NCBI RefSeq assembly: GCF_002866025.1
Contig: NZ_LNDE01000001.1
Location: forward strand, 310,001-374,000
Source of the DNA: Thermotoga sp. KOL6
Lineage (GTDB): Bacteria > Thermotogota > Thermotogae > Thermotogales > Thermotogaceae
DNA: 64,000 bases
Direction of reading: 5' to 3'
This document shows, in pieces, positions 44,102-59,716 of the stretch. A model generated the notes under the pieces. It had not been told where the DNA came from. It worked only from the letters and a program-made list of their open reading frames with translations, and ran no database searches. The position numbers and the translations under genes are program-made. Numbering within the stretch: the stretch's first letter is position 1; the number at the start of each line of letters is the position of its first letter.

Positions 44102-44871
44102 GAGCCTGGGAGTATTACGATAGAGTAGCAGAAAAATACGACTCCATGTACGACAATCCAAGATGGCATCTCTACCATGAGCTCCTTCAATGTTTTTTAA
44201 AAGAACATTTGAAGGAACCGTGTAAAATTCTCGATCTTGGAGGTGGTACCGGCAGATGGAGCCTGTTTTTCCAAAACAGAAGATTTGACGTGGTAATGGT
44301 CGATCCATCGGAAAAGATGTTGAAAGTTGCCAAAGAAAAAGGAGTCAAAAATGTTATCAAAGCACGTGCTGAGTCGTTACCTTTTCCCTCTGAATCTTTC
44401 GATGGCGTGCTTGCTTTGGGTGACGTCCTCAGTTACGTTGAAAACAGAGACAAAGCATTCTCAGAAGTGAGAAGAGTTCTCAAACCAAAAGGTGTACTAG
44501 TGGCAATGGTCGATAACTTTTACACCTTTCTTCAACAAATTGTGGAAACAAATGGCTGGAATTGGATTCACCGCTTTGTAAGCACTCAAACGATCGAGAT
44601 AGGAGATGTTGCGTTTTCTTTCAGATCTTATGCCTTCAAGCCGGAAGATTTTGAAGCTTTGGAAGGATTCGACATGGTGGATATTCGAGGAATCGGGGTG
44701 TTTAACTACACAGAAACACAAATTGAGAAGAATCGAGACATTATCATAGAACTGGAGAAAAAATTCTCAAAGGATGAACACATTTTATGGAAGGCTGAGC
44801 ACATTTTCTTCGTACTAAGAAAGAAAGAGGAGCCGTTAGGCCCCTCAACTGGTGGGTGCGGCAGGGATTGA
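44092..44871 (+). CDS. SAM-dependent class I methyltransferase
   Basis: A 259-residue methyltransferase of the UbiE/Methyltransf_11 type: ILDLGGGTGRWSLFF (motif I), VVMVDPSEKML, ARAESLPFPSESFDGVLALGDVLSYV (split) and VRRVLKPKGVLV. Substrate unknown. RsmD ends within its first codons. The last residues (EPLGPSTGGCGRD) are read through the hairpin and the last 22 bases of the convergent tRNA-Val gene, so the functional protein probably ends near FVLRKKE. Confidence 0.87.
44830..44849 (-). terminator. Terminator of tRNA-Val, inside a convergent CDS
   Basis: Imperfect 8-bp stem GAGGGGCC/GGCTCCTC read on the minus strand with loop TAAC, followed by TTTCTTTCTT. It overlaps the coding end of the methyltransferase gene. 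Confidence 0.6.
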
Positions 44872-44924
44872 ACCTGCGACCTCTTCCTCGTCAAGGAAGC
44901 GCTCTCCCACTGAGCTACGCACCC
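44850..44924 (-). tRNA. tRNA-Val (GAC)
   Basis: A 75-nt cloverleaf with acceptor GGGTGCG/CGCACCC, anticodon loop TTGACGA (anticodon GAC), T-arm GGTTCAATCC and encoded CCA (complement of 44850-44852). It marks one edge of the accessory block. Confidence 0.95.
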
Positions 44925-44938
44925 ATCACCGTTCAATA

Positions 44939-44967
44939 ATGATACCACAGTCGAACGATGACGTCAA
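44939..44967 (-). promoter_or_regulatory. Promoter of tRNA-Val
   Basis: Minus strand -35 TTGACG (complement of 44962-44967), 17-bp spacer, and -10 TATCAT (complement of 44939-44944) in an extended TGGTATCAT; ends 14 bases before the tRNA. Confidence 0.8.
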
Positions 44968-45081
44968 GACGCAAAAGTGTTTTGAAAACAGAGATAAATT
45001 AGCAGCGAGTGACATAAAAGTGAGAACAATCTCATAGAGAAAAACCCTTGTGTTATCAAAAAAATCTCAAGACCTTAAAAC

Positions 45082-46956
45082 TCACCGCCCAAAAATTAGA
45101 GATTTTATGTCTTCAAAACATATCGAATAATTCGGTATTATCACATCTGCTTTCGCTCTTAAAAGTCTTTCAACCTTTTTCATATCCCATGTATTTCTCT
45201 TGTATTCATCACAAGCAACACCTAATGTTAAAGCCTTGTACTTCCATCCAATCATAATTTCAACAGGGCCATCTCCGACTACAAGGAGTTCTCCCTCATT
45301 AAGATTAAATTCGTTTACTATCCTTTCTATAATTTCCCTTTTAGAGATTTCTTTCCTCTCATTCACCTTTTCCTCTAAAGAATCGAAATAATCATAAACT
45401 TCTAGGAATTTCGCTTCTTCTACAACATCCGATTTATCTGTTCCAGAAGCAAGAAACAACTTAATGCCTTTGTTCTTTAACAATCTTAGAAAATCTATGA
45501 TGCCTTCTACTAAATAGTCTTGTTTTTTCTTCTTTCCATTAGTGATTTCCCGCATCCTTTTTTTCACAATTTCTTTCAATCTTTTCGTGTAGATTTTCTT
45601 GTACTCGGGAAAAGGCAATATTTCCTTTTCTGGAACCAAACCATATCCTCGAACAAGCTTTTCCAGGACTTTCATTTGAATAGAGGTTCTAACACCAGTG
45701 CTTCTATTTATTAAATTGTCCACTCTATCTGATATATCTCGATAAAGAGCATCAGGTATTTTCCTATTACCCATAATTGATTCCACCATAACTTCTTTCA
45801 TAACGCTTTCCCATCCTCGTCTCAATAAAGAAATTGTTCCATCAAAATCGAAAAGAGCTACTTTTACATTTTTCTTCTTCAGTCTTTCAAAATTCAGCAC
45901 AACTGTGTTTTCATTTTTGAGGGAAACAAACGGAACTTTCTCATAATTGTCCAGCAAGATATTCCATGTGATTTTCCCCGTCCTCGGCTGTTGAACGCAA
46001 ATACTTCCACAATTGATTCCCAAATCCAATGCTTTTTGAAAATCACGACTTTGCAGAAAGTTTAAAACGAAACAACTGGTAAAAGCGTCTCCTGCTCCGC
46101 AAACATCGATAACATTTACCTTTTTGGAAGGCATTCTGAAAAGACAACCCTTTTCATTGATACCAACTGCTCCTTCATTTGACAAGGTGATCACGATAGG
46201 GTTTTTGAATTTTTCAAACAGTTTTTTACCATACACTTGGGAACAGAGTACTGGAGCCACTTTACACGTTTCTTCAACAGTTTCATCAAAAATTTCTTTG
46301 GCTATGTTGGATAATTCCTTAATGTTACATTTGATCATACAAAAATCCAAAAAATCTGTTGCCTTCTTTCTTGAATCGGCTATGAAAAGCTTTTTTGGAT
46401 ATTTTCTTTTAAGATCACGCAGATGGTTTATGACCCTAACACTGAATGTTCTAAATTTACCAGTCTCATATTGATCTATCAACAATACCGAATCTACTTC
46501 ATCCATCAAAAAATTTAATCTTTCTATCAACATATCTTCTTCATCTTTTGTGATAGGAAAGAAATCATACCTGTCAATCCTTGGCTTATCTTCTTTCATG
46601 GTTTCGGAATTGAAGAATTTTGTGTAAAATCTAGTCACTCTTTGGGGTGATACGATCATATGAGAAGTTTCGATATTCAGATTTTTCAAGCAGTCGAGCA
46701 AGACTCTCCCTTCTTCATCATCACCAATTATCCCCAGCACATAAACTTTTGCCCCTAGCATGGCCATATTTTTTGCAACGTTTCCTGCAGCTCCTGGAGA
46801 TGGTTCATATTCCGTAACCACGATTGGAGTTATACCGGTTTCCAAGCTTGGTTCCCCAAGTTTTGGATCGTAAATATAATACTTGTCCAGAAAGAAATCT
46901 CCCACAACGAGTATTTTCAGGTTTTCAAATCCTTTCAAGATTTCGTTTGTTTCCAT
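45082..46956 (-). CDS. HldE-type PfkB sugar kinase fused to HAD phosphatase
   Basis: A 624-residue fusion. Residues 1-345 are a PfkB/ribokinase-fold kinase closest in pattern to the kinase half of HldE/RfaE (VVGDFFLDKYY, PSPGAAGNVAKNMAMLGA, catalytic GAGD at 287-290). Residues about 362-624 are a HAD hydrolase with a helical cap: motif I FDFDGT (369-374), motif II ASGT, motif IV GDGPVEI. In heptose-nucleotide synthesis a heptose-7-phosphate kinase and a bisphosphate phosphatase (GmhB) act in succession, so the fusion could join these steps; but the HAD half is not GmhB-like (no DRDGV). Last gene of the operon; RBS GAGGTG. Confidence 0.82.
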   Translation of the reverse strand: METNEILKGFENLKILVVGDFFLDKYYIYDPKLGEPSLETGITPIVVTEYEPSPGAAGNVAKNMAMLGAKVYVLGIIGDDEEGRVLLDCLKNLNIETSHMIVSPQRVTRFYTKFFNSETMKEDKPRIDRYDFFPITKDEEDMLIERLNFLMDEVDSVLLIDQYETGKFRTFSVRVINHLRDLKRKYPKKLFIADSRKKATDFLDFCMIKCNIKELSNIAKEIFDETVEETCKVAPVLCSQVYGKKLFEKFKNPIVITLSNEGAVGINEKGCLFRMPSKKVNVIDVCGAGDAFTSCFVLNFLQSRDFQKALDLGINCGSICVQQPRTGKITWNILLDNYEKVPFVSLKNENTVVLNFERLKKKNVKVALFDFDGTISLLRRGWESVMKEVMVESIMGNRKIPDALYRDISDRVDNLINRSTGVRTSIQMKVLEKLVRGYGLVPEKEILPFPEYKKIYTKRLKEIVKKRMREITNGKKKKQDYLVEGIIDFLRLLKNKGIKLFLASGTDKSDVVEEAKFLEVYDYFDSLEEKVNERKEISKREIIERIVNEFNLNEGELLVVGDGPVEIMIGWKYKALTLGVACDEYKRNTWDMKKVERLLRAKADVIIPNYSICFEDIKSLIFGR

Positions 46957-46967
46957 ACACTTTCACC

Positions 46968-47981
46968 TCAACCAATACTCCTATGAAGATATTCCCAAAG
47001 TGCAATCAAAGTTTCTCGATGATCTCCTTGGACGTAGACTCCCTCCCCCTCGAAAGCTTTCGGAATTCTAACTACGACACTCTTTATGTCTCTAAAGTAA
47101 TACACGGGATTTCTTTCGTCACCAATTTCCACAGGCCTTACGGACTCAACTGGCTTCATATCGAAAACCGCTGTAAAAAGTTTGGAAGGAGGAGAACCCA
47201 CATTCGCAGCCATCGATACTGCCTTCAGAAAATTCTCAACACCTATAACTTGGGAACCTATTAGAATACATACTCCTTCCTTTAAATGTGAAACTGTCTC
47301 TGCTAGTATGAGAAAATCACGAGCAGAACATCCTCCCGCTGCTTCACCTGAGAAAGAAGGATGCATATGAACAATGTCCGCGCCTATAGCAATATGAACA
47401 GTCAGAGGTACGTTATTTTTGTAAGAATTGTAAACAACCGAGATTTCTTTATGAGGAAATTCCAATTTACCAAATGATGGAAGCGTCAATTCATCAGAAA
47501 GCAACATTCCTATAGTTTCACCGTACCCAAGTTTCCGTTTGTTTCCTTCATTGATTGCTTCGTTTATAATATCTGCGGTTTCCTTTGCAAAGCCAAACTT
47601 CCCTTCTCCCAAAGCATTAGGGATGCTTTCAGATGTTTTCCCCACAAGAGCCAATTCAAGGTCATGGATTATGAACGCACCATTTACCGCTATATGATCA
47701 ACCAAACCATTTTTTATGAGCCATATCAAAAATGTTCCAAGGCCATTTTTTATTATGTGTGCTCCTGAAATTATCAGAATTTTTTTGTTTTTTTCTTTTG
47801 CTTCCAAAATTTTTTCGGCAACTTTTTTGATCGTATTATCGAGTTTTTCACTTAAATTTGGTACCTTCACTTTTTCCAAATCAACAAGATCCTTCAGGCT
47901 AACTTTCGAAGGTCTTTCAAAGAGAGAATATCTTTTCAATCTTGAAGTATCAAAGATGCGCCAGCGCCCTTTGTATTCCAT
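46968..47981 (-). CDS. Unknown protein, weakly deoxyhypusine-synthase-like
   Basis: A 337-residue soluble protein. No firm family call. Visible blocks: ILIISGAHIIKNGLG (about 68-82), VNGAFIIHDLELALVGKTSE (about 99-118), GETIGMLL, HIAIGADIVHMHPSFSGEAAGG (split, about 197-218) and CILIGSQVIGVENFLKAVSMAANVG. The Rossmann-like glycine spacing and HD in a strand-loop recall deoxyhypusine synthase, and similar proteins are sometimes so named, but deoxyhypusine chemistry is not expected in bacteria. Its place between GmhA-like and HldE-like genes suggests an enzyme acting on a sugar phosphate. RBS GGGAGG is rather far from the ATG. Confidence 0.7.
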   Translation of the reverse strand: MEYKGRWRIFDTSRLKRYSLFERPSKVSLKDLVDLEKVKVPNLSEKLDNTIKKVAEKILEAKEKNKKILIISGAHIIKNGLGTFLIWLIKNGLVDHIAVNGAFIIHDLELALVGKTSESIPNALGEGKFGFAKETADIINEAINEGNKRKLGYGETIGMLLSDELTLPSFGKLEFPHKEISVVYNSYKNNVPLTVHIAIGADIVHMHPSFSGEAAGGCSARDFLILAETVSHLKEGVCILIGSQVIGVENFLKAVSMAANVGSPPSKLFTAVFDMKPVESVRPVEIGDERNPVYYFRDIKSVVVRIPKAFEGEGVYVQGDHRETLIALWEYLHRSIG

Positions 47982-47990
47982 GATTTACGA

Positions 47991-48563
47991 TCAACCTCCC
48001 ATGAGTTCTTCCACAATTTGAGCCAAAACGTGTCCTAAAGTTATATGGGTTTCTTGAATCCGTGGGGTATCAGAACTTGGAACTACGAAGAGATAATCAC
48101 AGTATTTCTTCATGGATTTTCCTATTTCCCCCGTGAAACCGATTGTCAAAGCCCCTATTTCCTTTGCCCTTTCAAGAGCTCTGATAACGTTCTGGGATTT
48201 CCCACTTGTACTTATTCCCACAACAACGTCTTTTTCGGTTGCGAAAGCTTCTATTTGTCTCACAAATGTGTTTTCAAAACCAAAATCGTTTCCAATCTCT
48301 GTAAGCAAAGCCCCGTTAGCATTTAAACAAATAGCAGGTATTGGATTTCTTACTTTGTAAAATTTCCCAACCAGTTCTAACGCTATATGTTGAGCATCAC
48401 ATGCGCTTCCACCGTTACCCATGAGGATAACTTTTCCTCCAGATTTCACTTTTTCAACAATTCTCCGGGCAACTTCCAGTATCATACCGGCAAATTCCTC
48501 GGCAAATTTTCTTTTGATCTCAGAACTTTCAAGAAATATCTCTCTGATCCTCTTCTCATCCAT
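47991..48563 (-). CDS. gmhA: Phosphoheptose isomerase-like SIS protein (GmhA family)
   Basis: A 190-residue SIS-domain protein. GmhA family features: MGNGGSACDAQHIALELVGKF (split), VGISTSGKSQNVIRALERAK, and C-terminal RIQETHITLGHVLAQIVEE with the conserved Gln-Glu/His pair. Family reaction: sedoheptulose 7-phosphate to D-glycero-D-manno-heptose 7-phosphate. ATG at 48563 follows GAGGTG by six bases. Isomerisation of another ketose phosphate is possible given the sugar-importer context. Confidence 0.88.
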   Translation of the reverse strand: MDEKRIREIFLESSEIKRKFAEEFAGMILEVARRIVEKVKSGGKVILMGNGGSACDAQHIALELVGKFYKVRNPIPAICLNANGALLTEIGNDFGFENTFVRQIEAFATEKDVVVGISTSGKSQNVIRALERAKEIGALTIGFTGEIGKSMKKYCDYLFVVPSSDTPRIQETHITLGHVLAQIVEELMGG

Positions 48564-48573
48564 AGAGATCACC

Positions 48574-49488
48574 TCAATATTCGATGTTCTTCCAAGCAAA
48601 TTGCGCAATTAAGAGAGCTGCTATGTCCCCCAATCTATCCTTCAGTTCGCTACGAACGATCCTGCAAACTTTCCTTGAATTTGACAAAGCTTCTTTCTCT
48701 ACAACTTCAAAAGCCTTTTCTAACCAAATTTGTGGAAGTCTCCAACTCAGATTTCCAAGAACTATGGCATCAGGATTAAAAATATCTATAAGAATGGCAA
48801 TACCGATACCAAGGTATTTTCCACTTTCTTTTAAAACTTCTATTGCATACTTATTTCCCTTGAAAGCTTGATCTGCTATCTCTTTGGTGGTCACATTCTC
48901 TTCGAAAATTTCTGGAAACATGAAATGAGCAAGCTTCGCTATACCTTTTCCGCTGCAGAAGGATTCCCAGGATCCCTCTTTTCCATAAACAATGGGGCCT
49001 TTCTCTGCTACACGAATGTGTCCAACCTCACCTGCAAAGCCTGTTGCTCCTCTGTAAAGTTTCCCGTCTATGATCAATCCTGCTCCAAGTCCCGTTCCAA
49101 GGGTAAGAAATATCATGTTTTTACAACCTCGTCCGGCTCCATATTTCCACTCTGCAAGAGCACAGGCTTTGGCATCATGTTCCACTTTTACAGGGCACTT
49201 AAAGATCTTCTCCAAAACTCCTTTTAAATTAACCTCCCCCCACGGAAGATGTGGAGGATTAAAGATAACCCCCTTTTCAGCGTCAAGAGGTCCCCCTATA
49301 GAAACACCTATGGCGTCTATTCCGTATCCTTTTACTATATCTTTAGCTTTACGTAATAACCGTTCAAGGAAATTTTTAAAACCTTTCTCTGGGTTGGTTT
49401 GAAAGGTTACTTTCTCAAGTATCTCGAGTTTTTCATTACCAACGATCACGGATGTCTTCGTTCCGCCTATATCAAAACCAATAAACAC
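48574..49488 (-). CDS. ROK family sugar kinase
   Basis: A 304-residue kinase with ATP site DIGGTKT near the N-terminus, catalytic Asp in VEHDAKACALAEWKYG, and GTGLGAGLIIDGKLYRG / GFAGEVGHI. The usual ROK CxCGxxGC zinc motif is replaced (KEGSWESFCSGKG), which occurs in some sugar kinases. GTG at 49488 is six bases after GAGGTG. Probably phosphorylates the sugar brought in by the adjacent ABC importer; identity unknown. Confidence 0.88.
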   Translation of the reverse strand: MFIGFDIGGTKTSVIVGNEKLEILEKVTFQTNPEKGFKNFLERLLRKAKDIVKGYGIDAIGVSIGGPLDAEKGVIFNPPHLPWGEVNLKGVLEKIFKCPVKVEHDAKACALAEWKYGAGRGCKNMIFLTLGTGLGAGLIIDGKLYRGATGFAGEVGHIRVAEKGPIVYGKEGSWESFCSGKGIAKLAHFMFPEIFEENVTTKEIADQAFKGNKYAIEVLKESGKYLGIGIAILIDIFNPDAIVLGNLSWRLPQIWLEKAFEVVEKEALSNSRKVCRIVRSELKDRLGDIAALLIAQFAWKNIEY

Positions 49489-49501
49489 AATTTTCACCTC
49501 G

Positions 49502-50320
49502 TTACTCTTTCATAGCACCTGCTATAAGACCTTTTATAAAGAATTTTCCAAAGAAAAGAAGAACTAGTATACCTGGAATCGAAACGATGGCTGCACCTGC
49601 CATCAACATATTCCACTGTGCAACGTACGATCCTTTCAACCCTGCCACTACTGGTATAGCCAAACGAGTTGTAGGATCTCTACTCAAGGACAGAGCTATT
49701 ATGAATTCGTTCCATATGTTAACGAAACTTAATACAGCAGCAGACATTAAACCAGATACAGAAATTGGTATAAGAATTTTGAAGTAAAAAATAACAGGCC
49801 CACATCCATCTAAAAAAGCAGCTTCCTGCAGTTCTTTAGGAATGGTTCTGAAAAACAGGGAAGTTATTAAAGTGGCCATAGGAGTGTTTAGAATAACGTA
49901 TGAAAGAATCATCCCTGATAATGTGTTAAAAAGGCCAAGAGAAACTATCAATCTAGTTAAAGGAATTAGGAATATTTGATAGGGCAGAAATGTAACGATT
50001 GCAATCATAAAGAACAAACCATTTCTTCCTTTAAATTTGAATCTGGCTAAAGCATAACCACTCCAAGAGCCGATAAACACCGTTATAAAAGTGGCGCATA
50101 GGCTTACAATAAAGCTGTTTTTTAAGGGAAGTTTAAGAATATTAAAAGCTTGCTTCCAATTTTCAAATTGGAACCTTGTAGGAAAAGAAAGATAGTGACC
50201 GGTACTTACTTCAGCTAATGTTTTGAACGATGTAGTAAACATAACATAAACTGGTAGAATCCATGCGATTGCAAGGAAAACAATTATCACAATGATAACA
50301 GCATTTTTTAAAATATTCAT
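49502..50320 (-). CDS. Sugar ABC transporter permease, MalG type
   Basis: A 272-residue permease with six helices and EAA loop EAAFLDGCGPVIFYFKILIP (about 187-206). N-terminal AIAWILPVYVMFTTSFKT is typical of carbohydrate uptake family 1 MalG-like subunits. ATG at 50320 follows GAGGA; the upstream gene overlaps by four bases. Confidence 0.93.
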   Translation of the reverse strand: MNILKNAVIIVIIVFLAIAWILPVYVMFTTSFKTLAEVSTGHYLSFPTRFQFENWKQAFNILKLPLKNSFIVSLCATFITVFIGSWSGYALARFKFKGRNGLFFMIAIVTFLPYQIFLIPLTRLIVSLGLFNTLSGMILSYVILNTPMATLITSLFFRTIPKELQEAAFLDGCGPVIFYFKILIPISVSGLMSAAVLSFVNIWNEFIIALSLSRDPTTRLAIPVVAGLKGSYVAQWNMLMAGAAIVSIPGILVLLFFGKFFIKGLIAGAMKE

Positions 50321-51189
50321 TCCTCTATCCACCTCGCCATCATCCACTTTGATAAAGGAATTAAAATAACTATAGACAACATCAAAATAACAACTGCAAC
50401 GGCGGCTCCCATTCCAACAAGAAGCTGTCTGAAAGTTATCCTATACATTAAATAAGGCAGAACCTCCGTTGCATACCCTGGCCCACCTCTCGTCATTATC
50501 CAAACCAAATCAAAGACTTTAAGAGTATAAAGAACTAATAGAGAAAATATTATCAATGTAGCGTGCCCTATTTCAGGGACCACGATATGAAAAAATATCT
50601 GACGCATATTGGCACCATCAACTTTTGCAGCTTCTATATGCTCCCTAGGGATTTCTCTTATGGCAGCCGTGTAAAGAACTAAAGCAAATCCCAAATTTTG
50701 CCATATACCTGCAACTATCATGCAATATACAGCAAGCTTTGGATCTGCTATCCATCCTGCTTTGAAATTGCTTAGATTAACAAGATCGAGTATTGAATTT
50801 AAAACACCCGATTGAGGATCGAAAAACCACGCCCATAGTGTCCCAGCAACAATTGGAGCCACCACTAGAGGGTAAAGATATATAGGCCGTACTATTCTGG
50901 AAATGCTAGGGAAGAGCTCCAAAAGATAAGCCAATATCATCCCAAACACACCAGTTGGTACCACAAAAACCACTAGCCAGATTATATTGTTTTTCATATT
51001 TACCCAGAATCTTGGCATACTAAAAAGTAATTTGTAATTCTTAAATCCAGCAAATTTCCATGTTGGATTCATACCAACCCAATCTGTCATTGAAACTACA
51101 ACAGTCCAAAGTAACATGTAATAAAGAACTCCAATTATTACAAAAGCGGGCAATAAGAAGAAGAAAATAGTTCTTCTGCTGACTCTTAT
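50317..51189 (-). CDS. Sugar ABC transporter permease, MalF/UgpA type, proposed ATA start
   Basis: A permease of about 290 residues: six helices and EAA loop EAAKVDGANMRQIFFHIVVP (about 207-226). The only conventional starts (TTG at 51246 and 51222) lie in the intergenic hairpin. AAGGAGGG stands six bases before an ATA at 51189, which places the start just before RVSRRTIFFFLLPAF, the usual N-terminus for this family. The start is therefore proposed as ATA; identity as MalF-type permease is firm. Confidence 0.88.
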   Translation of the reverse strand: MRVSRRTIFFFLLPAFVIIGVLYYMLLWTVVVSMTDWVGMNPTWKFAGFKNYKLLFSMPRFWVNMKNNIIWLVVFVVPTGVFGMILAYLLELFPSISRIVRPIYLYPLVVAPIVAGTLWAWFFDPQSGVLNSILDLVNLSNFKAGWIADPKLAVYCMIVAGIWQNLGFALVLYTAAIREIPREHIEAAKVDGANMRQIFFHIVVPEIGHATLIIFSLLVLYTLKVFDLVWIMTRGGPGYATEVLPYLMYRITFRQLLVGMGAAVAVVILMLSIVILIPLSKWMMARWIEE

Positions 51190-51222
51190 AAATCTCCCTC
51201 CTTTCTCACCTAACCTTAACAA

Positions 51223-51246
51223 TTGAGGGGGAGAAATCCCCCTCAA
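51223..51246 (-). terminator. Intercistronic hairpin after the binding-protein gene
   Basis: Perfect 9-bp stem (51223-51231 with 51238-51246), 6-base loop, between the binding-protein stop and the permease ribosome site. No U tract follows on the minus strand, so an mRNA-stabilising stem or weak attenuator is more likely than a terminator. Confidence 0.7.
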
Positions 51247-51271
51247 ATATGAAGATTTTGTGATTGCTATA

Positions 51272-52537
51272 TCACTTTGTTTGCCAATACCACATGCTGT
51301 TTTCCTTTACTTTGTAAAATTTCATAGCGTTATCTATTTGGTTTAATACCCTATCAATATCTGGACTATAGAGGAAATTCACAAGAATGTCCTGATATTC
51401 ACTCAAGAAAGATTCCGGTGCGAGAACACCATGTATAGAACTTGGAACTATCCGAGCATTTCTGAAATCTCTTATGTCTATCCTCCTTACTTCATCAGGA
51501 TATGCTTCCACTGGTACCAGTTTGTGTGGTGCTATAGATCCCTTTATTATTGTAAATTCCTTCTCAGGTTCGGGTTCAGCTATAAACTTTAACCATTTTC
51601 TGGCTGCATCAACATTTTTGGCCTTCTTTGGGAGAGTAAATGTATCCACGATCATTAAGAAAACGTTTGGCTCTGCTGGAAATGGGACAGCCCCCCAATC
51701 AACGCCATATTTTTTACCCGTGGCTATCATATACCCAACCGCAAAATCCCCTATTACCATCATCACCCAATCCTTTCTTCCAAGAGCCTGATCCCAGGTT
51801 TGAGCACTGTGATATGGATAGATATACGGTACAAGTTCTGCAAAATATTCAAAGGCTTTTCTGAGAAGAGGTTCACTTTTGACATCAAGTTGACCTGTAT
51901 AGAACTTTTCATAAATGTCAGGACCACCTACAGATAGCAATATAGTATCAAACAGAAATACAACAGTAAACTTGTCTCTTGTTCCGAGCGTTATAGGCCA
52001 CAAATCCGGTCGTTTTTGTTTTATTGTTTTTGCTACTTCCAAGAGCTCTTCAACGTTCTTAGGTGGTTGTATATTTAATTCGTCGAATATCTTTTTGTTA
52101 TACAACAACCAATTAGCTCGATGGATGCTCATTGGTATCGCGTAGACATGGCCATTAAATGTCACCATCTTTTTCATGAGAGGCGGGAAGTTTTCATCAA
52201 GATTTTGTTCTTTCCAAATATCATCAACAGGTGCTAGGTAGCCACCATCTACATAGTTTTTTAAGTCTGCACCACTAAGCGACTGGAAAGTATCAGGTGG
52301 CATACCAGCTGCGAGAAGCCCCATGAGGACGGTTCTTAATGTGGTGCCCCCTCCTCCAACAATTGGATTTTCAACAATTTCAATGTCTGGATAAGCTTTC
52401 TTGAACAATTCAAATAGTTTGTCTATAGCTTGCCTCTCACCACCAGCCGTCCACCAGTGATAGATTACCAATTTTTCGGAAGCTGAAACCACAAGCATTG
52501 CTGCTATCAAAATGAGTAGAGTTACAAACTTTCTCAT
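51272..52537 (-). CDS. Sugar ABC transporter substrate-binding protein (family 1)
   Basis: A 421-residue exported protein. Signal peptide MRKFVTLLILIAAMLVVSA, then VIYHWWTAGGERQAIDKLFELF and YPDIEIVENPI, typical of CUT1 sugar-binding proteins. No lipobox Cys. Aromatic residues (Trp in YHWWTAGG, WIVLY-like, WGAVPFPAEPNVF) fit a carbohydrate site. Second gene of the operon, 15 bases after the ROK regulator. Confidence 0.92.
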   Translation of the reverse strand: MRKFVTLLILIAAMLVVSASEKLVIYHWWTAGGERQAIDKLFELFKKAYPDIEIVENPIVGGGGTTLRTVLMGLLAAGMPPDTFQSLSGADLKNYVDGGYLAPVDDIWKEQNLDENFPPLMKKMVTFNGHVYAIPMSIHRANWLLYNKKIFDELNIQPPKNVEELLEVAKTIKQKRPDLWPITLGTRDKFTVVFLFDTILLSVGGPDIYEKFYTGQLDVKSEPLLRKAFEYFAELVPYIYPYHSAQTWDQALGRKDWVMMVIGDFAVGYMIATGKKYGVDWGAVPFPAEPNVFLMIVDTFTLPKKAKNVDAARKWLKFIAEPEPEKEFTIIKGSIAPHKLVPVEAYPDEVRRIDIRDFRNARIVPSSIHGVLAPESFLSEYQDILVNFLYSPDIDRVLNQIDNAMKFYKVKENSMWYWQTK

Positions 52538-52552
52538 GAAATATCCCCCCTT

Positions 52553-53749
52553 TTAGTATAGAATGGAGAAAATTCTTTTTGGGCTCGTTTTGTACTCTTT
52601 CATAATAATAAGTTTCTTCAGATACATAACAACAGCATGTGAGGCAGCTCCTAAAGGTATAGCCATATCTCCCAAATGTGAATATTGAATCTTGATCTTC
52701 GTTCCAAAAATTCCGTATTTTTTCACAATTTCTCTTATTTCCTCGATAAAAATATCCCCTAGAAGTTGATATTTTCCTCCTATGAATACATCGGGTATTC
52801 CTAGTGTGTGGACCAATGAAAGAATTAAAAGGCCAAAATCCTTAGCTATCTCTTTTATGAGTTCCTCCGCTTTTTTGTCTCCTTTTTTGACTCTTTCCGT
52901 TATATCCTGTAACTTCGAAATATTGCCATTTATCTCAGATTTTGCTTTCTCAATAACCACATCCATACCGTATGCATCTTCGAAATACACGAAGTTTCCA
53001 TTCCTTTCAAGCAGAATGTGCCCTACCTCTCCTGCATAACCAATCTTTCCACGGTACAGGTGGTTGTCCACAATGATTCCAGCACCTACCCCTTCGCTTA
53101 TATGAATGTATATAAGGTTGTTTATGGTTCTTCCTCCACCGTAACGTTTCTCTCCAAGTGCTGCCATATCTGCGTCATTTTCTATCCAAACGTCTATTCC
53201 GTATTTGTCGTAGAGCAATTGAACAAGGGGAATATTTTCGAAGTTAGAAAACTTAGGAGGCTTCAAAACCATACCTTTTATAGGATCCAAGGGGCCTGGT
53301 ATACCAAGTCCTATTGTCTTCACTTTGAGAGACTCTTTATTTGCTTTTTCTAACAAATTATCGATAACATGCGTGATATTTTTGATGACTTCTTCAGCAT
53401 TTTTCTTTTCAAACACAGGACTCATCTCATATAATAGAAGCTTCCCTTTAGCATCTATGAGGCATCCTATGGCTTGATGTCGAAGCACACCAACACCAAT
53501 TGCATAGAGAGAAGAGGGAATGATCTCTAGGGGTATAGGCTTTCTTCCTGCACCTGGTACGTTTTTCCTCTTTCCCCTTTTCTCTTCTACAAAACCAAGA
53601 TCTATAAATGTTTTCACAACATTTCCAACCGTTGTTCTGGTAAGGCCTGTTATTTCGGATATCTCTGATCTTGATACACTGTGATTCAACAACAACTCTA
53701 AAATTTCAAAAGCATTTCTATATTTTGTTGCTTTTCTCACAGAAAACAT
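52553..53749 (-). CDS. ROK family transcriptional regulator (NagC/XylR type)
   Basis: A 398-residue protein with an N-terminal winged HTH (about 10-65: SRSEISEITGLTRTTVGNVVKTFIDLGFV, split) and a ROK sugar-binding domain (WIENDADMAALGEKRYGGG, GVGAGIIVDNHLYRG, GYAGEVGHILL). The zinc Cys motif is absent. First gene of the sugar operon and presumably autoregulatory: sugar binding would release the operator. RBS GGGAGTG before the ATG. Confidence 0.92.
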   Translation of the reverse strand: MFSVRKATKYRNAFEILELLLNHSVSRSEISEITGLTRTTVGNVVKTFIDLGFVEEKRGKRKNVPGAGRKPIPLEIIPSSLYAIGVGVLRHQAIGCLIDAKGKLLLYEMSPVFEKKNAEEVIKNITHVIDNLLEKANKESLKVKTIGLGIPGPLDPIKGMVLKPPKFSNFENIPLVQLLYDKYGIDVWIENDADMAALGEKRYGGGRTINNLIYIHISEGVGAGIIVDNHLYRGKIGYAGEVGHILLERNGNFVYFEDAYGMDVVIEKAKSEINGNISKLQDITERVKKGDKKAEELIKEIAKDFGLLILSLVHTLGIPDVFIGGKYQLLGDIFIEEIREIVKKYGIFGTKIKIQYSHLGDMAIPLGAASHAVVMYLKKLIIMKEYKTSPKRIFSILY

Positions 53750-53792
53750 AATGTTACACTCCCATTTAATATATAAATTTCATTTACTATTG

Positions 53793-53800
53793 TCTTAAGA
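53793..53800. promoter_or_regulatory. TCTTAAGA palindrome, candidate ROK operator
   Basis: An 8-bp perfect palindrome lying immediately downstream of the -10 on the minus strand, at the likely transcription start. Position fits a repressor operator; no second copy was found, so it is tentative. Confidence 0.3.
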
Positions 53801-53829
53801 AGTGTACCATATATTTAAAATTCTGTCAA
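53801..53829 (-). promoter_or_regulatory. Promoter of the sugar operon
   Basis: Minus strand: perfect -35 TTGACA (complement of 53824-53829), 17-bp spacer, extended -10 TGGTACACT with hexamer TACACT (complement of 53801-53806). It reads into the ROK regulator at 53749. Confidence 0.8.
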
Positions 53830-54327
53830 CTATTTTACAAAGCAAAATGAATCGAACCACTCATTAGAGCAATCGGGCCAAATACAGGTTTTCATTCGAA
53901 AAGATATTGGGAACGAATCGTAATTGATCTTAAAGAAGCACAATGGAGTAATGAGCCAACAAGCTAATCCCACGTGTTTAAAAAGATAGTGTGACTAGCA
54001 TTTTTAATGTATAAGCATTAACATAAGGATACAACATAATTGTTTAGGCAAATCAGATAGAAGATGACAGAGAGAAATGTTCTCGGAGAAAAGTAAAATG
54101 CCAAAACATCCTGAATCAAAAAATAAAGTATTGATGAGGTGCTAAGTGAAAACAAACTGCCCCTTCTTAGTTATAAAATTTCATAACGGTGCAGAAGATT
54201 ACATGCGAAAATGTTCACAAATTTTTTTCTCGTTCTCTACAGATTTTTAACTAATGATCGAAAGATAAATTCTAAGATAATACACGATGAGAACTTTTAA
54301 TATGGGATGCCGAAAGGGGTGAACTGT
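53830..54327. other. Long AT-rich intergenic region between divergent operons
   Basis: No credible gene here: frames are short and lack ribosome sites, and no repeat array or RNA fold of a known type is seen. It contains the Rex-like site at 54203-54220. Possible but weak -10 hexamers for the plus-strand operon are GATAAT (54276-54281) and TTAATAT near 54297. The length is unusual for this compact genome and suggests a junction or decayed sequence. Confidence 0.5.
54203..54220. promoter_or_regulatory. Rex-like operator upstream of the hydrogenase-like operon
   Basis: ATGCGAAaatgTTCACAA matches the Rex consensus TTGTGAAnnnnTTCACAA at 12 of 14 defined positions, with a perfect right half-site. 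It lies about 108 bases before the first gene. Rex is an NADH-responsive repressor of fermentative and hydrogen metabolism in many anaerobes. By-eye match only. Confidence 0.45.
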
Positions 54328-54588
54328 GTGAGTAAAGTAAAGGTGGAGATATGCGTTGGAACAACTTGTCATATAATGGGTTCTTATGCCTTGGTAGATA
54401 CTCTGGAAAGTCTTCCAAGTTGGATAAAGGAAAAAATAGACTACAAATTATCCCCCTGTTTCGACGTTTGTCATGGACACATGAAACCACCTATTGTGAA
54501 AGTGGAAGGACAGTATTACGAGAATATGACTCCAGACGATCTGAAAAGAGTGATCATGGAAATACTAGAAAGGGGAGATAAAATTTGA
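54328..54588 (+). CDS. Thioredoxin-like [2Fe-2S] ferredoxin (NuoE/HydC-type), first copy
   Basis: An 86-residue protein with the four cysteines of thioredoxin-fold [2Fe-2S] proteins: CVGTTC near the N-terminus and PCFDVC in the middle. GTG at 54328 follows AAAGGGGTG. Electron carrier for the H-cluster proteins encoded after it (inference). Its stop overlaps the next start region by four bases. A second, similar protein is encoded at 56039. Confidence 0.85.
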   Translation: MSKVKVEICVGTTCHIMGSYALVDTLESLPSWIKEKIDYKLSPCFDVCHGHMKPPIVKVEGQYYENMTPDDLKRVIMEILERGDKI

Positions 54589-56042
54589 GAAGACTTGTTC
54601 TTAATAACATAATAAAAACAAGACGAAGATTGTATATAGAACTGGCCAAAAGCTATTTAGAAGGAAAGTTGAAAAAAGTCCTTCCCAAGCTTCCAAGTAT
54701 TTTGATACCGGAGAACTCATCTGACAAGGTAAGAATCTTTTATGAAAGGGAGATCCTCAAGGAGAAGGTGAAATTTGCTCTTGGCCTTGACTACTCTAAA
54801 GTGAGGGATTTAGAGTTATATGAAATAACAGATTTTCTTGATGAAATCGTTTCCGGAGAATCCGAACTCTTGGAGAAAGAAAATTTTGTGAACGTGATAG
54901 ATAAAATATGCAGCGAATGTCCTGGTGGTAGATATTACGTAACAGATCTCTGCAGAAACTGCATAGCCCACTCTTGCGAGAACGTGTGTCCTAGGCGTGC
55001 AATTTCTATTGTGGATAACAGAGCTCAGATAGATTACAGCAAATGTGTGAACTGTGGTTTGTGTGCTTCTGCGTGCCCTTATCAAGCGATAATAAAACTC
55101 GAAAGGCCTTGTGAAAAAATGTGTTATGTCAATGCTATTCATCCATCAGAAGAAGGAAGTATGGAAATCGATCATAAAAAATGTTCTGCTTGTGGAGCTT
55201 GCTACATTGCTTGTCCTTTCGGTGCTATAGAGACACCTTCACAGCTTCTTCAGGTACTTCACGAACTTACATCGAACAAAAAGATCATAGGAATATATGC
55301 CCCATCTGCTGTTGCACAATTTGGTAGCAAGGTTTCTATAGCTCAATTCAGAGAAGCTTTGAAAAAAGCAGGATTTTCCGATATTTTTGAAGTAGCAATA
55401 GGAGCGGACATGGTAGCAGAAGCTGAGGCTGAGCACCTTCTGAAAAATAATGAATTGATGCTAACTTCCTGTTGCCCAGCATTCGTTCATTTTGTCAAGA
55501 ACAACTTCCCAGATCTTGCAAATAACATATCACCAGTTCCATCACCTATGATCATGCTTTCCAGAAAGCTTAGAGAAGAATTCCCAGATCATAAAACAGT
55601 TTTCATAGGACCTTGTATAGCTAAAAAAATGGAAGCCAAAAACGCTGGAATACCAGATTACGTCATAACTTTCGAAGAAATAGGGGCGATATTCACAGCG
55701 TTCGGAATCGAACCTATGTCCCTTAAAGGAGAGAAACCAAGACCCGCTACTCCGTATGGATGGAATTTCGCCTACACCGGAGGAGTTGGAGAAGCAGTGC
55801 GTTACTATGTCAGGAAACTTGCTGATGATAAAGTTGCAGACTCTTTGATCCATGTGTTTGCAAACGGAATATCAGAATGCGCTCAACTCTTGAAAGACGT
55901 AAAAGATGGTAAACTGAAAGTAAATATATTTGAAGGCATGGGATGTGATGGAGGATGTGTGGCAGGCCCTGGCATCCTGATTGATCCCGCTGTTGCCAAA
56001 GCAAATCTTAAAAAGATGTTAACGCAGAAGGTGATAATGTGA
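54585..56042 (+). CDS. [FeFe]-hydrogenase-like protein with complete H-cluster motifs
   Basis: A 485-residue cytosolic protein. An N-terminal helical region of about 100 residues, then a cysteine-rich stretch (Cys109-135), two 4Fe-4S ferredoxin motifs (Cys154-164, Cys200-210) and an H domain. H-cluster motifs: L1 TSCCPAF with Cys296/297, L2 GPCIAKKME with Cys344, L3 EGMGCDGGCVAGPG with Cys454 and Cys458. All four cluster cysteines and the proton-relay Cys296 are present; Phe replaces the usual Trp after L1. This fits group B or D enzymes rather than the bifurcating HydA. Begins in the overlap with the ferredoxin gene. Confidence 0.87.
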   Translation: MRRLVLNNIIKTRRRLYIELAKSYLEGKLKKVLPKLPSILIPENSSDKVRIFYEREILKEKVKFALGLDYSKVRDLELYEITDFLDEIVSGESELLEKENFVNVIDKICSECPGGRYYVTDLCRNCIAHSCENVCPRRAISIVDNRAQIDYSKCVNCGLCASACPYQAIIKLERPCEKMCYVNAIHPSEEGSMEIDHKKCSACGACYIACPFGAIETPSQLLQVLHELTSNKKIIGIYAPSAVAQFGSKVSIAQFREALKKAGFSDIFEVAIGADMVAEAEAEHLLKNNELMLTSCCPAFVHFVKNNFPDLANNISPVPSPMIMLSRKLREEFPDHKTVFIGPCIAKKMEAKNAGIPDYVITFEEIGAIFTAFGIEPMSLKGEKPRPATPYGWNFAYTGGVGEAVRYYVRKLADDKVADSLIHVFANGISECAQLLKDVKDGKLKVNIFEGMGCDGGCVAGPGILIDPAVAKANLKKMLTQKVIM

Positions 56043-56290
56043 AAAAGCTTTACGTATGCCTTGGAAGTGCTTGTCATCTCAAAGGAGCGGAAAAGATAGC
56101 TAAGATATTCGAGGAGATGATTGAGACACATGGTTTGAAAGACAAAATCATTTTAAAAGGTTCGTTCTGTTTGGGACCCTGTTTAGAAGCAGTTGTTATA
56201 AAGTTCGAAGATCGGATTATAAAAAATGTTACGCCAGAAAATGCCAAAGAAGTTTTTGAAAAAGAGATACTACCTCTATTGGAGGATTGA
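56039..56290 (+). CDS. Thioredoxin-like [2Fe-2S] ferredoxin, second copy
   Basis: An 83-residue paralog of the protein at 54328: CLGSAC near the N-terminus and FCLGPC in the middle, then VTPENAKEVFEKEI. GTG start overlaps the hydrogenase stop. Likely electron carrier between the two H-cluster proteins or to the PAS partner. Confidence 0.85.
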   Translation: MKKLYVCLGSACHLKGAEKIAKIFEEMIETHGLKDKIILKGSFCLGPCLEAVVIKFEDRIIKNVTPENAKEVFEKEILPLLED

Positions 56291-56292
56291 AA

Positions 56293-56796
56293 ATGGAAAA
56301 GAGTATTTTGGAGCTGTTCTGGAAGTATGATCCCAACGGTCTTGTCATAGTGGACAAAGATATGAAGATAGTGGAATCAAATCCTTCATTTGAACACATG
56401 TTTCAGATAAAACACGAAAATGCCCGTGGTTTCTATATTGAAAGACTTTTAGGAAGAGCAGGTATAGATATTTTCAAAAAAGTCTTCGAATCTGGAGAAT
56501 CAGTTACAAAAGATAAAATAGTCTTCCCATCGTACGGAGTCACAGTTAGATTCATAGCCTTCAAGATACCCGGTAAAGACCTCGCTGCGGGAATACTGGT
56601 CGATATAACTTCCGAAGAAAAAAAGAAAAAAGAACTCGCCGAAATAAAGTTAGGAACTATAAATAAGATAAACGATGTGATCTTGAAGCAAATGGAAGTT
56701 GCGCAGGAGATAGCGAGTCTTCTTGGAGAGACTGTTGCAGAAACAAAAGCGTCCCTTTTGAATCTTTTGAAGATAATCCAAGGAGGAAAAGAATAG
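56293..56796 (+). CDS. PAS-domain protein with shared C-terminal module
   Basis: A 167-residue cytosolic protein: PAS domain (about 10-108, PNGLVIVDKDMKIVESNPSF at the start), a charged helix, and a C-terminal segment (131-162; QMEVAQEIASLLGETVAE then TKASLL) that is almost identical to the C-terminus of the sensor hydrogenase at 56796. ATG at 56293 has GGAGG upstream. No kinase domain. Probably a signalling adaptor; the PAS cofactor is unknown. Confidence 0.82.
   Translation: MEKSILELFWKYDPNGLVIVDKDMKIVESNPSFEHMFQIKHENARGFYIERLLGRAGIDIFKKVFESGESVTKDKIVFPSYGVTVRFIAFKIPGKDLAAGILVDITSEEKKKKELAEIKLGTINKINDVILKQMEVAQEIASLLGETVAETKASLLNLLKIIQGGKE
56719..56762 (+). repeat. 44-bp exact direct repeat, copy 1
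   Basis: Identical base for base to 58140-58183. Both copies encode LLGETVAETKASLL in the same frame in two different proteins. Confidence 0.95.
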
Positions 56797-58223
56797 TGAT
56801 CAACATAATTCTCACGAATCCAGATAAATGCGTAAGATGTATGAGCTGTGTGAGAGCGTGTGAAGTTAATTCTAACATCGTGGAAGAAAGTCACGTGGAT
56901 ATAGTTCCGCAAATGTGCATTGTCTGTGGCGCATGCATCGAAGTTTGTCCAGAAGGTGCACGATCCTATTTAAAACAGATCGATATCTTCAGAAAGTGGT
57001 TGACAGAAGAAAAGGTCGTAGCAATTGTTGCACCATCCTACGTTGCTCATTATGATGAGCCGTACAAGTTCATAACCGCTCTCAAAAAGGTGGGAGCTAT
57101 CGCAGTGCATGAGGTTGCTACAGGTGCTGAGCTCTCATCTATGGTGATTGCTGAAGAGATAAAATCAGGAAAGAAAGTCATAGCTTCGCCATGTCCAACT
57201 GTTGTCAATTACATAAAAAAATGGATTCCAGAACTCATTGATAGATTATCCACAGCAGTGAGTCCTATGATAGCTATAGCAAGGTATGCAAGAAAACAAC
57301 ATCCTGAAGCAAAGATTGTCTTCATAGGACCATGTATCTCCAAAAAATCGGAAATTGTCCAAGATGAAGTTAAAGGTGATGTCGATCTTGCACTGACTTT
57401 CGAAGAAGTAGATGAATTTTTTGAAAGTAGCAAGTTGAATTTGAAAATGTTGGAAGAATCTTTCCCAGATGAGTTCAATTCACTCTACGGTCTTTCATAT
57501 CCTGTTGTGGGCGGACTTGCAAAAACCGTGGGCTATTACCTTCAAGAAGATTTTGATATGGTTCTAGATAAAGATGTTGTTGTTATTGAAGGAAAATGGA
57601 ACATGGTTAAGTTTCTCAGAAAATACTTTAAGAACATTCAAAAAGGGCAAGATGATGAAAATCCTGTCCTAGCAGAAGTTCTTTACTGCGATGGTGGATG
57701 CATCGGAGGACCTGGTATAAGAAATGATCTTGAAATTTTTGAAAAAAGAAAAAGGGTGGTTGAGCATACTTTGAGGAAACTAAATAACAGGCGAGTGGAG
57801 TTGAAAAGATTGTATCAAGATCTCAATTTGACGAGGTGTTATAAACCAGAGAAAGTCGATTATAAGATCCCAAAAGAAGAGGAAATAAACGAGATATTGA
57901 AAAAAATAGGAATGTTAGAGAAACCCTTAAACTGTGGAGCTTGTGGTTACCATACTTGCAAGGACAGAGCCATTGCTGTTATAAATGGTTTGATACCATG
58001 GGATCTCTGCATCCAATATCAGTTCAGAAAAATTGAAGAAGAACACGAAAGGGAGCTTCTAAGAATAAGAGAGGAAACAATAGAAAAAGCGAAGAAAGTC
58101 ATCAATAAACAAATGGAAATAGCACAAGAAATAGCAGGACTTCTTGGAGAGACTGTTGCAGAAACAAAAGCGTCCCTTTTGAAAGTACTCGATCTGATAA
58201 CCAAAGAGGAGGAAACTGGATGA
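56796..58223 (+). CDS. Sensory [FeFe]-hydrogenase-like protein (HydS type)
   Basis: A 475-residue cytosolic protein. Ferredoxin-like motifs at the N-terminus (Cys12-22 and Cys41-51), an H domain with altered L1 ASPCP (Cys133; the first Cys of TSCCP replaced by Pro), L2 GPCISKKSE (Cys180) and L3 YCDGGCIGGPG (Cys298, Cys302), then an FeS domain (NCGACGYHTC, Cys380-388, and Cys405), a coiled coil, and the shared 33-residue tail (436-468). The altered L1 removes the proton-relay Cys, as in sensory HydS proteins. GTG start at 56796 overlaps the PAS gene by one base. Confidence 0.87.
   Translation: MINIILTNPDKCVRCMSCVRACEVNSNIVEESHVDIVPQMCIVCGACIEVCPEGARSYLKQIDIFRKWLTEEKVVAIVAPSYVAHYDEPYKFITALKKVGAIAVHEVATGAELSSMVIAEEIKSGKKVIASPCPTVVNYIKKWIPELIDRLSTAVSPMIAIARYARKQHPEAKIVFIGPCISKKSEIVQDEVKGDVDLALTFEEVDEFFESSKLNLKMLEESFPDEFNSLYGLSYPVVGGLAKTVGYYLQEDFDMVLDKDVVVIEGKWNMVKFLRKYFKNIQKGQDDENPVLAEVLYCDGGCIGGPGIRNDLEIFEKRKRVVEHTLRKLNNRRVELKRLYQDLNLTRCYKPEKVDYKIPKEEEINEILKKIGMLEKPLNCGACGYHTCKDRAIAVINGLIPWDLCIQYQFRKIEEEHERELLRIREETIEKAKKVINKQMEIAQEIAGLLGETVAETKASLLKVLDLITKEEETG
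58140..58183 (+). repeat. 44-bp exact direct repeat, copy 2
   Basis: Second copy of the repeat at 56719-56762, 1421 bases away, in the sensor hydrogenase gene. Confidence 0.95.
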
Positions 58224-59377
58224 CGGAAGTGAAGTACGAATGCTATTTCAAAAGTTTGAACAAATATAATGAAGAGTTGTGTGGAGATGTAGTAAAGACT
58301 CTCAACTCTCCAAACTCCTTTATAGCGGTTCTGTCAGATGGTCTTGGAAGCGGTGTAAAAGCCAATATTCTGGCAACTTTAACTTCCGAGATAATATCCA
58401 CCATGCTAAAGGAAGGAGTGGATCTGACCGAAACTGTGGATACAGTAACAAAAACCCTTCCTATATGTAAAGAAAGAGGGATCGCTTACTCTACTTTTAC
58501 GATCGTTCAAGGTCTTCCAAATGGAAATGTTAAGATAACGAATTTCGATAATCCCGATCCTATGATCATCGTTGATGGCGCTATCATCCTGGAAAAGCCG
58601 AAACAAAAAGTTTTCGCGGGGAAGATTGTTAAGATTTGGGAACTCAAGTTGGAACCCGGTGATTTCATAGGCTTGATAAGTGACGGTGTTATGTACGCTG
58701 GACTTGGTGAATTTTTAAATTTTGGATGGGGCTGGGAGAATGTTGCAGAATACATCCAAAAACTATTGAGAAAATACGGAAATCCAAGGCTTGTTGTTGA
58801 AAATGTTATTGATGTTGTCAACAATTACTACAATGGAAAGTGTGGAGATGATGCAACAGTAGTGGGAATTCTTGTTAAAGAAAAAGAAAATCTCATCGTA
58901 TTCACAGGTCCCCCACTGAATAAAGAAGATGATGAGAAGATCGTTAAAAAATTCCTATCTCTCCCGGGGAAAAAGGTAGTTTGTGGTGGTACAACAGTCA
59001 ATATAGTTTCAAGGATTCTTGGAAAAGAACCGGAGATGGATATATCCACAGCAAGGCCTGAAATTCCCCCAATGGGAAAGCTTGAGGGAATTGATCTCGT
59101 AACAGAAGGAGTTCTTACCATGACAAAAACCTTGGAATACTTGAAAACATCGGATTTCGACGAACTCAAACTTCCATCCGATAGAAATGCAGCTCTTGAA
59201 CTTGCAAAACTTTTGATAAACGCAGATACCGTTCATATCATCATGGGGCAAAGTATAAATCCCTTTTATCAAAATCCAGATCTCCCTGCGAGTATTTCGA
59301 TAAGAAAAAACATAGTCGAGGAGCTCGCAAGGATCCTTAGAGAACATGGAAAAGAGGTAACGATAGAATATTGTTGA
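58220..59377 (+). CDS. SpoIIE/RsbU-type PP2C phosphatase
   Basis: A 385-residue protein with a PP2C-like SpoIIE domain in the first 225 residues: VLSDGLGSGVKAN (metal Asp), LISDGVMYAGLG and CGDDATVVGI. A C-terminal extension of about 160 residues (from LIVFTGPPLNKEDDE) has no clear family. Phosphatases of this type reverse serine phosphorylation by SpoIIAB/RsbW kinases; the CBS-HATPase at 13956 is a candidate antagonist. Overlaps the sensor-hydrogenase gene by four bases; last gene of the operon. Confidence 0.88.
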   Translation: MTEVKYECYFKSLNKYNEELCGDVVKTLNSPNSFIAVLSDGLGSGVKANILATLTSEIISTMLKEGVDLTETVDTVTKTLPICKERGIAYSTFTIVQGLPNGNVKITNFDNPDPMIIVDGAIILEKPKQKVFAGKIVKIWELKLEPGDFIGLISDGVMYAGLGEFLNFGWGWENVAEYIQKLLRKYGNPRLVVENVIDVVNNYYNGKCGDDATVVGILVKEKENLIVFTGPPLNKEDDEKIVKKFLSLPGKKVVCGGTTVNIVSRILGKEPEMDISTARPEIPPMGKLEGIDLVTEGVLTMTKTLEYLKTSDFDELKLPSDRNAALELAKLLINADTVHIIMGQSINPFYQNPDLPASISIRKNIVEELARILREHGKEVTIEYC

Positions 59378-59587
59378 ACTCAATATTTTGTTTAAACCTG
59401 TTGAAAAAGAGTTATCTATTATAGTAGACATTTTTGCATACCAATGCTGATCATCTTTGATTCGTGCGAGAGCAGTACAGTAGAGCTATGAAAGTGCTGT
59501 AAGAATAACATCCGCTCAAAATTAAAACGCTGAACACACTTGACAATTTTTCATGGAATAGCCGATCATTTCTCCAAACATGAGGAC
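59378..59587. other. Gap between hydrogenase-like operon and tRNA-Leu promoter
   Basis: AT-rich. No credible gene. TTGACA at about 59540 has no partner -10. No terminator for the plus-strand operon was recognised. Confidence 0.4.
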
Positions 59588-59616
59588 TTGAAAAGAACAG
59601 GAAGATGTGTTAATAT
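59588..59616 (+). promoter_or_regulatory. Promoter of tRNA-Leu (GAG)
   Basis: -35 TTGAAA (59588-59593), 17-bp spacer, -10 TAATAT (59611-59616), 13 bases before the tRNA. Confidence 0.75.
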
Positions 59617-59629
59617 ATATTCCGGAGTT

Positions 59630-59716
59630 GCCGAGGTGGTGGAACTGGCAGACACGCATGGTTGAGGGCCATGTGGGCTTCGGCCCGTGCGGGTTCAAGT
59701 CCCGCCCTCGGCACCA
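59630..59716 (+). tRNA. tRNA-Leu (GAG)
   Basis: An 87-nt class II tRNA: acceptor GCCGAGG/CCTCGGC, anticodon loop TTGAGGG (anticodon GAG), long variable arm with GGGCTTCGGCCC and encoded CCA at 59714-59716. It marks the other edge of the accessory block. Confidence 0.95.

Follow-up and report, generated by a model that had tools for sequence, protein, structure and literature searches.

A GSU2086-family protein, a GmhA-type isomerase and a kinase–HAD fusion belong to a conserved module in a putative sugar-utilisation operon of Thermotoga sp. KOL6

An eight-gene operon was analysed in a 64,000-nucleotide stretch of the Thermotoga sp. KOL6 genome (contig NZ_LNDE01000001.1, positions 310,001 to 374,000; hereafter the window). 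Four of its products, a ROK kinase, a GmhA-type isomerase, a GSU2086-family protein and a kinase–HAD fusion, form a module, and we hold with high confidence that they function jointly and in connection with sugar import. Since the four enzyme parts, including a GSU2086-family protein with the predicted fold of an NAD enzyme, travel together across phyla, a biochemically undescribed sugar pathway probably exists here. Our best reading, to which as a whole route we give an even chance, is that of a horizontally acquired, sugar-inducible utilisation operon with a phosphate-moving sugar-phosphate module. The operon is of the familiar ABC–ROK sugar operon type, in a variant built around this module.

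Organization of the operon

The operon (positions 45082-53749) consists of eight minus-strand genes, all with open reading frames, and neighbouring genes overlap or lie at most 25 bp apart. In the order of transcription its features are:

53801..53829, minus strand: sigma-70-like promoter TTGACA-N17-TACACT, TG-extended; called by consensus match (10/12)
52553..53749, minus strand: ROK-family transcriptional regulator (HTH + ROK), 398 aa; PF00480 139.5 bits, HTH matches
51272..52537, minus strand: CUT1 ABC solute-binding protein, 421 aa; SBP_bac_1 121 bits
50317..51246, minus strand: CUT1 permease 1 (UgpA/GlcT-like), 309 aa; family profiles
49502..50347, minus strand: CUT1 permease 2 (UgpE/GlcU-like), 281 aa; family profiles
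48574..49497, minus strand: ROK sugar kinase, 307 aa; 50-60% identity to positional equivalents in relatives
47991..48608, minus strand: GmhA-type SIS isomerase, 205 aa; 173 bits vs cut-off 209
46968..47981, minus strand: GSU2086-family protein, 337 aa; NF052581 323 bits, deoxyhypusine-synthase-like NAD-type predicted fold
45082..46956, minus strand: PfkB (HldE-like subgroup)–HAD fusion; kinase at about aa 1-340, HAD phosphatase/mutase at about aa 363-624

The initial annotation had described eight genes in a row behind one promoter, and this arrangement was borne out in coordinates, strand and seven of the gene families. The seventh protein in the row, which had been left unassigned, belongs to the GSU2086 family (323.2 bits with NF052581 over model positions 2-300 of 301, curated cut-off 250). 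The promoter (53829-53801) lies 52 bp upstream of the first ATG. Its call is based on position and on its rank among the best-scoring sites; promoter-like matches across the whole region numbered 23 vs 27.7 ± 5 in shuffled sequences, i.e. there is no excess. No convincing terminator was detected inside the operon, and no operator palindrome with arms of at least 7 bp was found upstream of the ROK regulator gene. The regulator is 51% and 45% identical to the ROK regulators encoded close to the GmhA/GSU2086 pair in loci L032 and L035, respectively. The solute-binding protein and both permeases of the CUT1 importer scored above family cut-offs; no ATPase gene for this importer and no aldolase gene are present within the operon.

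Co-occurrence and gene order in Thermotogota

The initial annotation had suggested a genome search for co-occurrence of these genes. The search was run with 103 Thermotogota genomes (the KOL6 genome being 1.7 Mb), and the genes do co-occur elsewhere. GSU2086 was found in 14 genomes; the six other species compared from the window's genus all lack it. The kinase–HAD fusion was present in 13 genomes, in one as a fragment, and all 13 are inside the GSU2086 set. The GmhA subtype (about 140-190 bits) was also present in 14 genomes, of which 13 carry GSU2086. The hypergeometric p values for association with GSU2086 were about 1e-15 for the fusion and 2e-14 for the GmhA type when genomes were counted, and 2e-7 for the fusion when genera were counted.

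The order ROK kinase–GmhA–GSU2086–kinase/HAD was complete in nine of the 13 other loci, which represent five genera, with five of the nine coming from a single genus. The ROK kinase is missing between permease and GmhA in L025, GSU2086 stands amid different neighbours in L027, and the L032 and L037 loci are interrupted by contig ends. Gene order is thus conserved far above chance.

CUT1 or other ABC importers were found near the module in L025, L026, L028-L030 and L032-L034, and, outside the phylum, CUT2 importers in L023, L081 and L084. The neighbours also include GH38 and GH1 glycosidases, Gfo/Idh/MocA and xylose-isomerase-like proteins, and ROK kinases or regulators. Because such varied importers, ROK proteins, glycosidases, Gfo/Idh/MocA and xylose-isomerase-like proteins adjoin the module, its setting points to sugar utilisation.

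Several further genes were noted in these neighbourhoods. The gene for a Cys/Met-metabolism PLP enzyme is flanked by those for a sugar importer and a GH38 α-mannosidase in L026 (14970-16124), with similar frames in L030, L034 and L090. In L036 (12622-13904) and L090 (8934-10198), which are from related genomes, the module is followed by an ECF-type S component and, next to it, a short PfkB kinase. Proteins that by eye, from the starts of their sequences, resemble parts of corrinoid-dependent methyltransferases adjoin the module in L036 (2068-4526) and L032 (9958-11869).

Occurrence outside the phylum and alternative fusions

The GSU2086 family is present in at least four phyla. Eight of 398 Bacillota genomes encode a full-length GSU2086. 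An HldE-like kinase is again present at these loci, most of which also have a HAD, a GmhA-like SIS protein or both. In one of the wider loci, L081, a ROK regulator, GSU2086, kinase, HAD, ROK kinase and GmhA are followed by the ATPase, permease and binding protein of a CUT2 importer. GSU2086 and GmhA form a single 562-aa reading frame in L083, and GmhA and HAD a single 467-aa frame in L084. The module is also carried by plasmids: one from Chloroflexota (L023) and one from Solidesulfovibrio (L024), the latter with the kinase fused to a cytidylyltransferase-like (nucleotidyltransferase) domain and with sialic-acid genes adjacent.

In Geobacter sulfurreducens, hldE, GSU2086 and gmhA have consecutive locus tags, with electrode growth defects of -3.1, -3.2 and -3.7 (PMC5585712). 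The GSU2085-GSU2087 genes resemble the KOL6 module in that a GSU2086-family gene lies between those for an HldE kinase and GmhA, one phenotype being common to the three mutants. They differ in containing a full HldE and in being termed a sugar biosynthesis operon; an importer and a kinase–HAD fusion are not mentioned in the available part of that report (PMC5585712). The fusions in different pairings, together with the common mutant phenotype, are good evidence that the parts of the module belong to one pathway.

The isomerase and the kinase–HAD fusion

The isomerase scored 173.2 bits with TIGR00441, below the curated 209.45. The active site of E. coli GmhA is kept: HxxxE, RIQE and two invariant histidines align. 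In the SIS proteins of L023, L024, L084 and L048 the catalytic Glu and Gln are replaced by Asp and Glu. On the basis of these changed positions, the isomerases of the wider set fall into two subtypes, this second one being linked to GSU2086 as well.

The kinase domain of the fusion scored 138.9 bits vs the curated 345 for heptose-7-phosphate kinase, and the kinases of relatives scored 114-166 bits. The KOL6 kinase lacks the DYxKG motif, which is SDYAKG in E. coli HldE, and has DQYETGK instead; relatives have DQ at the DY position, except for EQ in L023 and ADFGHG in L024. An S-x-E-T motif occupies the position of HldE SPEAP. The kinase fold is nearest to that of the heptose kinase HldA (top Foldseek matches 4e8y/4e84, TM 0.83-0.87 on target), and residues D284, G287, G289 and D290 are invariant. 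The earlier designation of this domain as an HldE-type kinase therefore holds for the fold, but not for the score or the DYxKG motif.

The HAD domain is of PF00702/HAD_2 type, with weak similarity to PpaX and to the TM_1254 phosphatase. All catalytic residues are kept (D370, D372, S504, K539, D562 and E566 are invariant). Only PF00702, HAD_2 and weak generic HAD models matched this domain, and no match was obtained with GmhB or HAD-IIIA histidinol-phosphatase-type models, which does not agree with its earlier placement as the phosphatase step of a heptose route.

The GSU2086-family protein

A single scan of the genome's contigs with the GSU2086-family protein revealed one locus. The predicted structure of the protein is of moderate confidence (mean pLDDT 80.6). 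Its top Foldseek matches in the PDB include Pyrococcus horikoshii and human deoxyhypusine synthase (E from about 1e-9 to 1e-7, TM about 0.5); ArgZ structures were also matched, and the GSU2086 profile aligns with the Rossmann segment of ArgZ. The PF01916 score was 23 vs a cut-off of 27, and profile comparison with human deoxyhypusine synthase yielded a short N-terminal segment only. Lysine K329 of the human enzyme had no partner in the GSU2086 protein with three alignment settings and an approximate human query sequence; a by-eye match of K300 to this catalytic lysine was not reproduced with the same settings and was discarded. The protein is thus similar to deoxyhypusine synthase and the ArgZ C-terminal domain in predicted overall fold and in the Rossmann segment, and dissimilar in identity (only 12-18%), in its sugar-related genome context and in the catalytic lysine, which is unmatched in sequence alignments. 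The protein probably has the deoxyhypusine-synthase fold and depends on NAD as an enzyme, and we infer that it may bind NAD and act on a sugar phosphate.

Separability of the module and comparison with known heptose pathways

The initial annotation had read GmhA, kinase and phosphatase as three successive steps from sedoheptulose 7-phosphate to heptose 1-phosphate. In the G008 operon the order is ROK regulator–CUT1–PLP enzyme–GH38–ROK kinase–GmhA, followed directly by an ECF component and a PfkB gene. The same ECF component and PfkB gene come after GSU2086–kinase/HAD–GH1 in L036; therefore, GSU2086–kinase/HAD–GH1 is an insertion or deletion in one relative to the other, and ROK kinase and GmhA can apparently work alone. 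L086 contains GSU2086, kinase and HAD and no GmhA within the 16 kb examined, and in G103 the sole short GmhA-like frame is on a different contig from the GSU2086 locus. Because GmhA and kinase/HAD are separable, a route from GmhA through the kinase to the phosphatase is possible and not forced; with an atypical kinase and HAD, the three-step scheme is unproven.

The KOL6 operon shares with ADP-heptose biosynthesis (GmhA, HldE, GmhB, HldD) the GmhA active site, the HldA-like kinase fold and a HAD as candidate for the GmhB step. It differs in the low kinase score and missing DYxKG motif and in the non-GmhB HAD, and has the importer, the ROK kinase and the GSU2086 protein as extras. The KOL6 genome contains no match to TIGR02199 (HldE-type nucleotidyltransferase) or to PF01075 (GT9 heptosyltransferase), and synthesis of LPS heptose in this genome was therefore dismissed. 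For the HldE type, the reported lack of a nucleotidyltransferase extends to the whole genome. Of the two options raised initially, uptake and catabolism of a sugar or production of a sugar 1-phosphate, the importer-linked conserved unit together with the lack of TIGR02199 and GT9 makes an uptake/catabolic operon likelier than LPS heptose synthesis.

A mannoheptulose pathway predicted for Rhodobacteriaceae bin08 is similar in having an ABC importer, a ROK kinase proposed to act on the heptose and a second kinase forming a 1,7-bisphosphate; it differs in that the second kinase is COG0529 and an aldolase is present, and GmhA, GSU2086 and HAD are not mentioned (PMC5507952). A literature search found no publication that connects phosphoheptose isomerase and heptose kinase with deoxyhypusine synthase and HAD, and none on Mesotoga with this isomerase.

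Proposed function and alternatives

In the proposed utilisation route, in which every reaction, the use of NAD and the substrate are predictions, the ROK regulator would control the operon, and a sugar or short glycoside would be imported by the CUT1 system, the ATPase of which would be encoded elsewhere. The ROK kinase would phosphorylate the terminal carbon of the released aldose, and the GmhA-type isomerase would interconvert an aldose phosphate and a ketose phosphate of manno configuration (heptose 7-phosphate/sedoheptulose 7-phosphate or mannose 6-phosphate/fructose 6-phosphate). The GSU2086 protein would carry out an NAD-dependent internal oxidation–reduction on the sugar phosphate, most likely an epimerisation. 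The kinase–HAD fusion would place one phosphate onto C1 and take another off, so that phosphate is moved and carbon enters central metabolism. Confidence is moderate for this outline and low for the exact sugar.

Several considerations weigh against it. No aldolase is encoded in the operon. By analogy with HldE, which adds the C1 phosphate, and GmhB, which removes the terminal one, a kinase joined to a phosphatase in a single polypeptide would make most sense in biosynthetic phosphate transfer, and the GSU2086 family is found in surface-sugar loci of Solidesulfovibrio and Geobacter. ROK kinase and GmhA occur in G008 without the trio GSU2086–kinase–HAD, so that this trio may handle a second sugar. 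The structural model of the GSU2086 protein is of moderate confidence, with a TM of about 0.5 to deoxyhypusine synthase. Alternatively, the module might start from sedoheptulose 7-phosphate and yield an activated sugar or a sugar 1-phosphate (heptose 1-phosphate or a related compound), the kinase adding the C1 phosphate, the HAD removing the terminal one and the importer supplying carbon only. The HldA-like fold, the kept GmhA active site, the Geobacter triad with its similar mutant phenotypes (PMC5585712) and the Solidesulfovibrio nucleotidyltransferase–kinase fusion adjoining sialic-acid genes are consistent with such synthesis, but we consider it rather doubtful for KOL6, whose genome has neither TIGR02199 nor GT9 and whose module is steadily linked to importers, ROK proteins and glycosidases. 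A mannoside operon, in which the ROK kinase would be a mannokinase, the GmhA homologue a phosphomannose isomerase for GH38-released mannose and the trio GSU2086–kinase–HAD an independent addition serving another sugar from the same glycan, is suggested by the GH38 α-mannosidase gene immediately upstream of ROK kinase–GmhA in g27 genomes, L036, L090 and L091, with no trio alongside in L090 and L091. Mannose 6-phosphate and the heptose 7-phosphate handled by GmhA share one ring configuration, but known GmhA enzymes use C7 substrates and the KOL6 operon contains no GH38. Co-occurrence with GH38 was set aside as evidence for mannosides, since GH38 is near-universal in the phylum (96/103 genomes) and adjacency alone counts. 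We regard this mannoside scheme as unlikely.

A phosphomutase role for the HAD, with the fused kinase serving only to supply a priming bisphosphate, as glucose 1,6-bisphosphate primes β-phosphoglucomutase, would suit the HAD type, its weak PpaX and TM_1254 similarity and the covalent fusion in Thermotogota. The domain bears no β-phosphoglucomutase sequence mark and is separate or isomerase-fused in other lineages; we find this explanation highly improbable.

A utilisation operon remains our preferred reading for KOL6. More broadly, we tentatively propose that GSU2086–kinase–HAD(–GmhA) could be an undescribed pathway with an NAD-using enzyme of the deoxyhypusine-synthase fold acting on sugar phosphates, for catabolism of an imported sugar (possibly seven-carbon and manno-configured) in some bacteria and for synthesis of an activated sugar in others. 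The GSU2086 family, whose function was so far undescribed, thereby gains fixed enzymatic partners and a testable reaction space. Heptose-type enzymes are found here beside sugar importers; if the substrate is C7, this would argue for GmhA-based catabolism of heptose in bacteria.

The operon is located in an insertion between two tRNA genes

Comparison with same-genus genomes placed the operon in a 14.7-kb insertion (44925-59629) that separates two tRNA genes in the window. Its borders and second cargo are:

44850..44924, minus strand: tRNA-Val(gac), left border
59630..59716, plus strand: tRNA-Leu(gag), right border; adjoins tRNA-Val in three same-genus genomes
54307..59377, plus strand: second cargo, [FeFe]-hydrogenase-like cluster; two large-subunit-like, two thioredoxin-like [2Fe-2S], PAS and SpoIIE-type phosphatase proteins

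In three same-genus genomes the insertion is absent and the tRNA genes are about 110-140 bp apart. These empty sites contain a methyltransferase gene, tRNA-Val(gac), tRNA-Leu(gag) and then the same membrane-protein and ClpB-like genes as the window. The G+C content of the insertion is about 38% vs 41% around it. No tRNA-derived direct repeat at its far end was found among the 20 largest repeat families listed. We conclude from these sequence comparisons that the operon-bearing insertion is probably a recent, lineage-specific gain, its loss in the relatives being less likely. The clean empty site shows that gain or loss involved the entire trait as a single unit. The closest homologues of the hydrogenase proteins in other members of the genus are about 35% identical, and the cluster at 54307-59377 is perhaps a hydrogen-sensing one.
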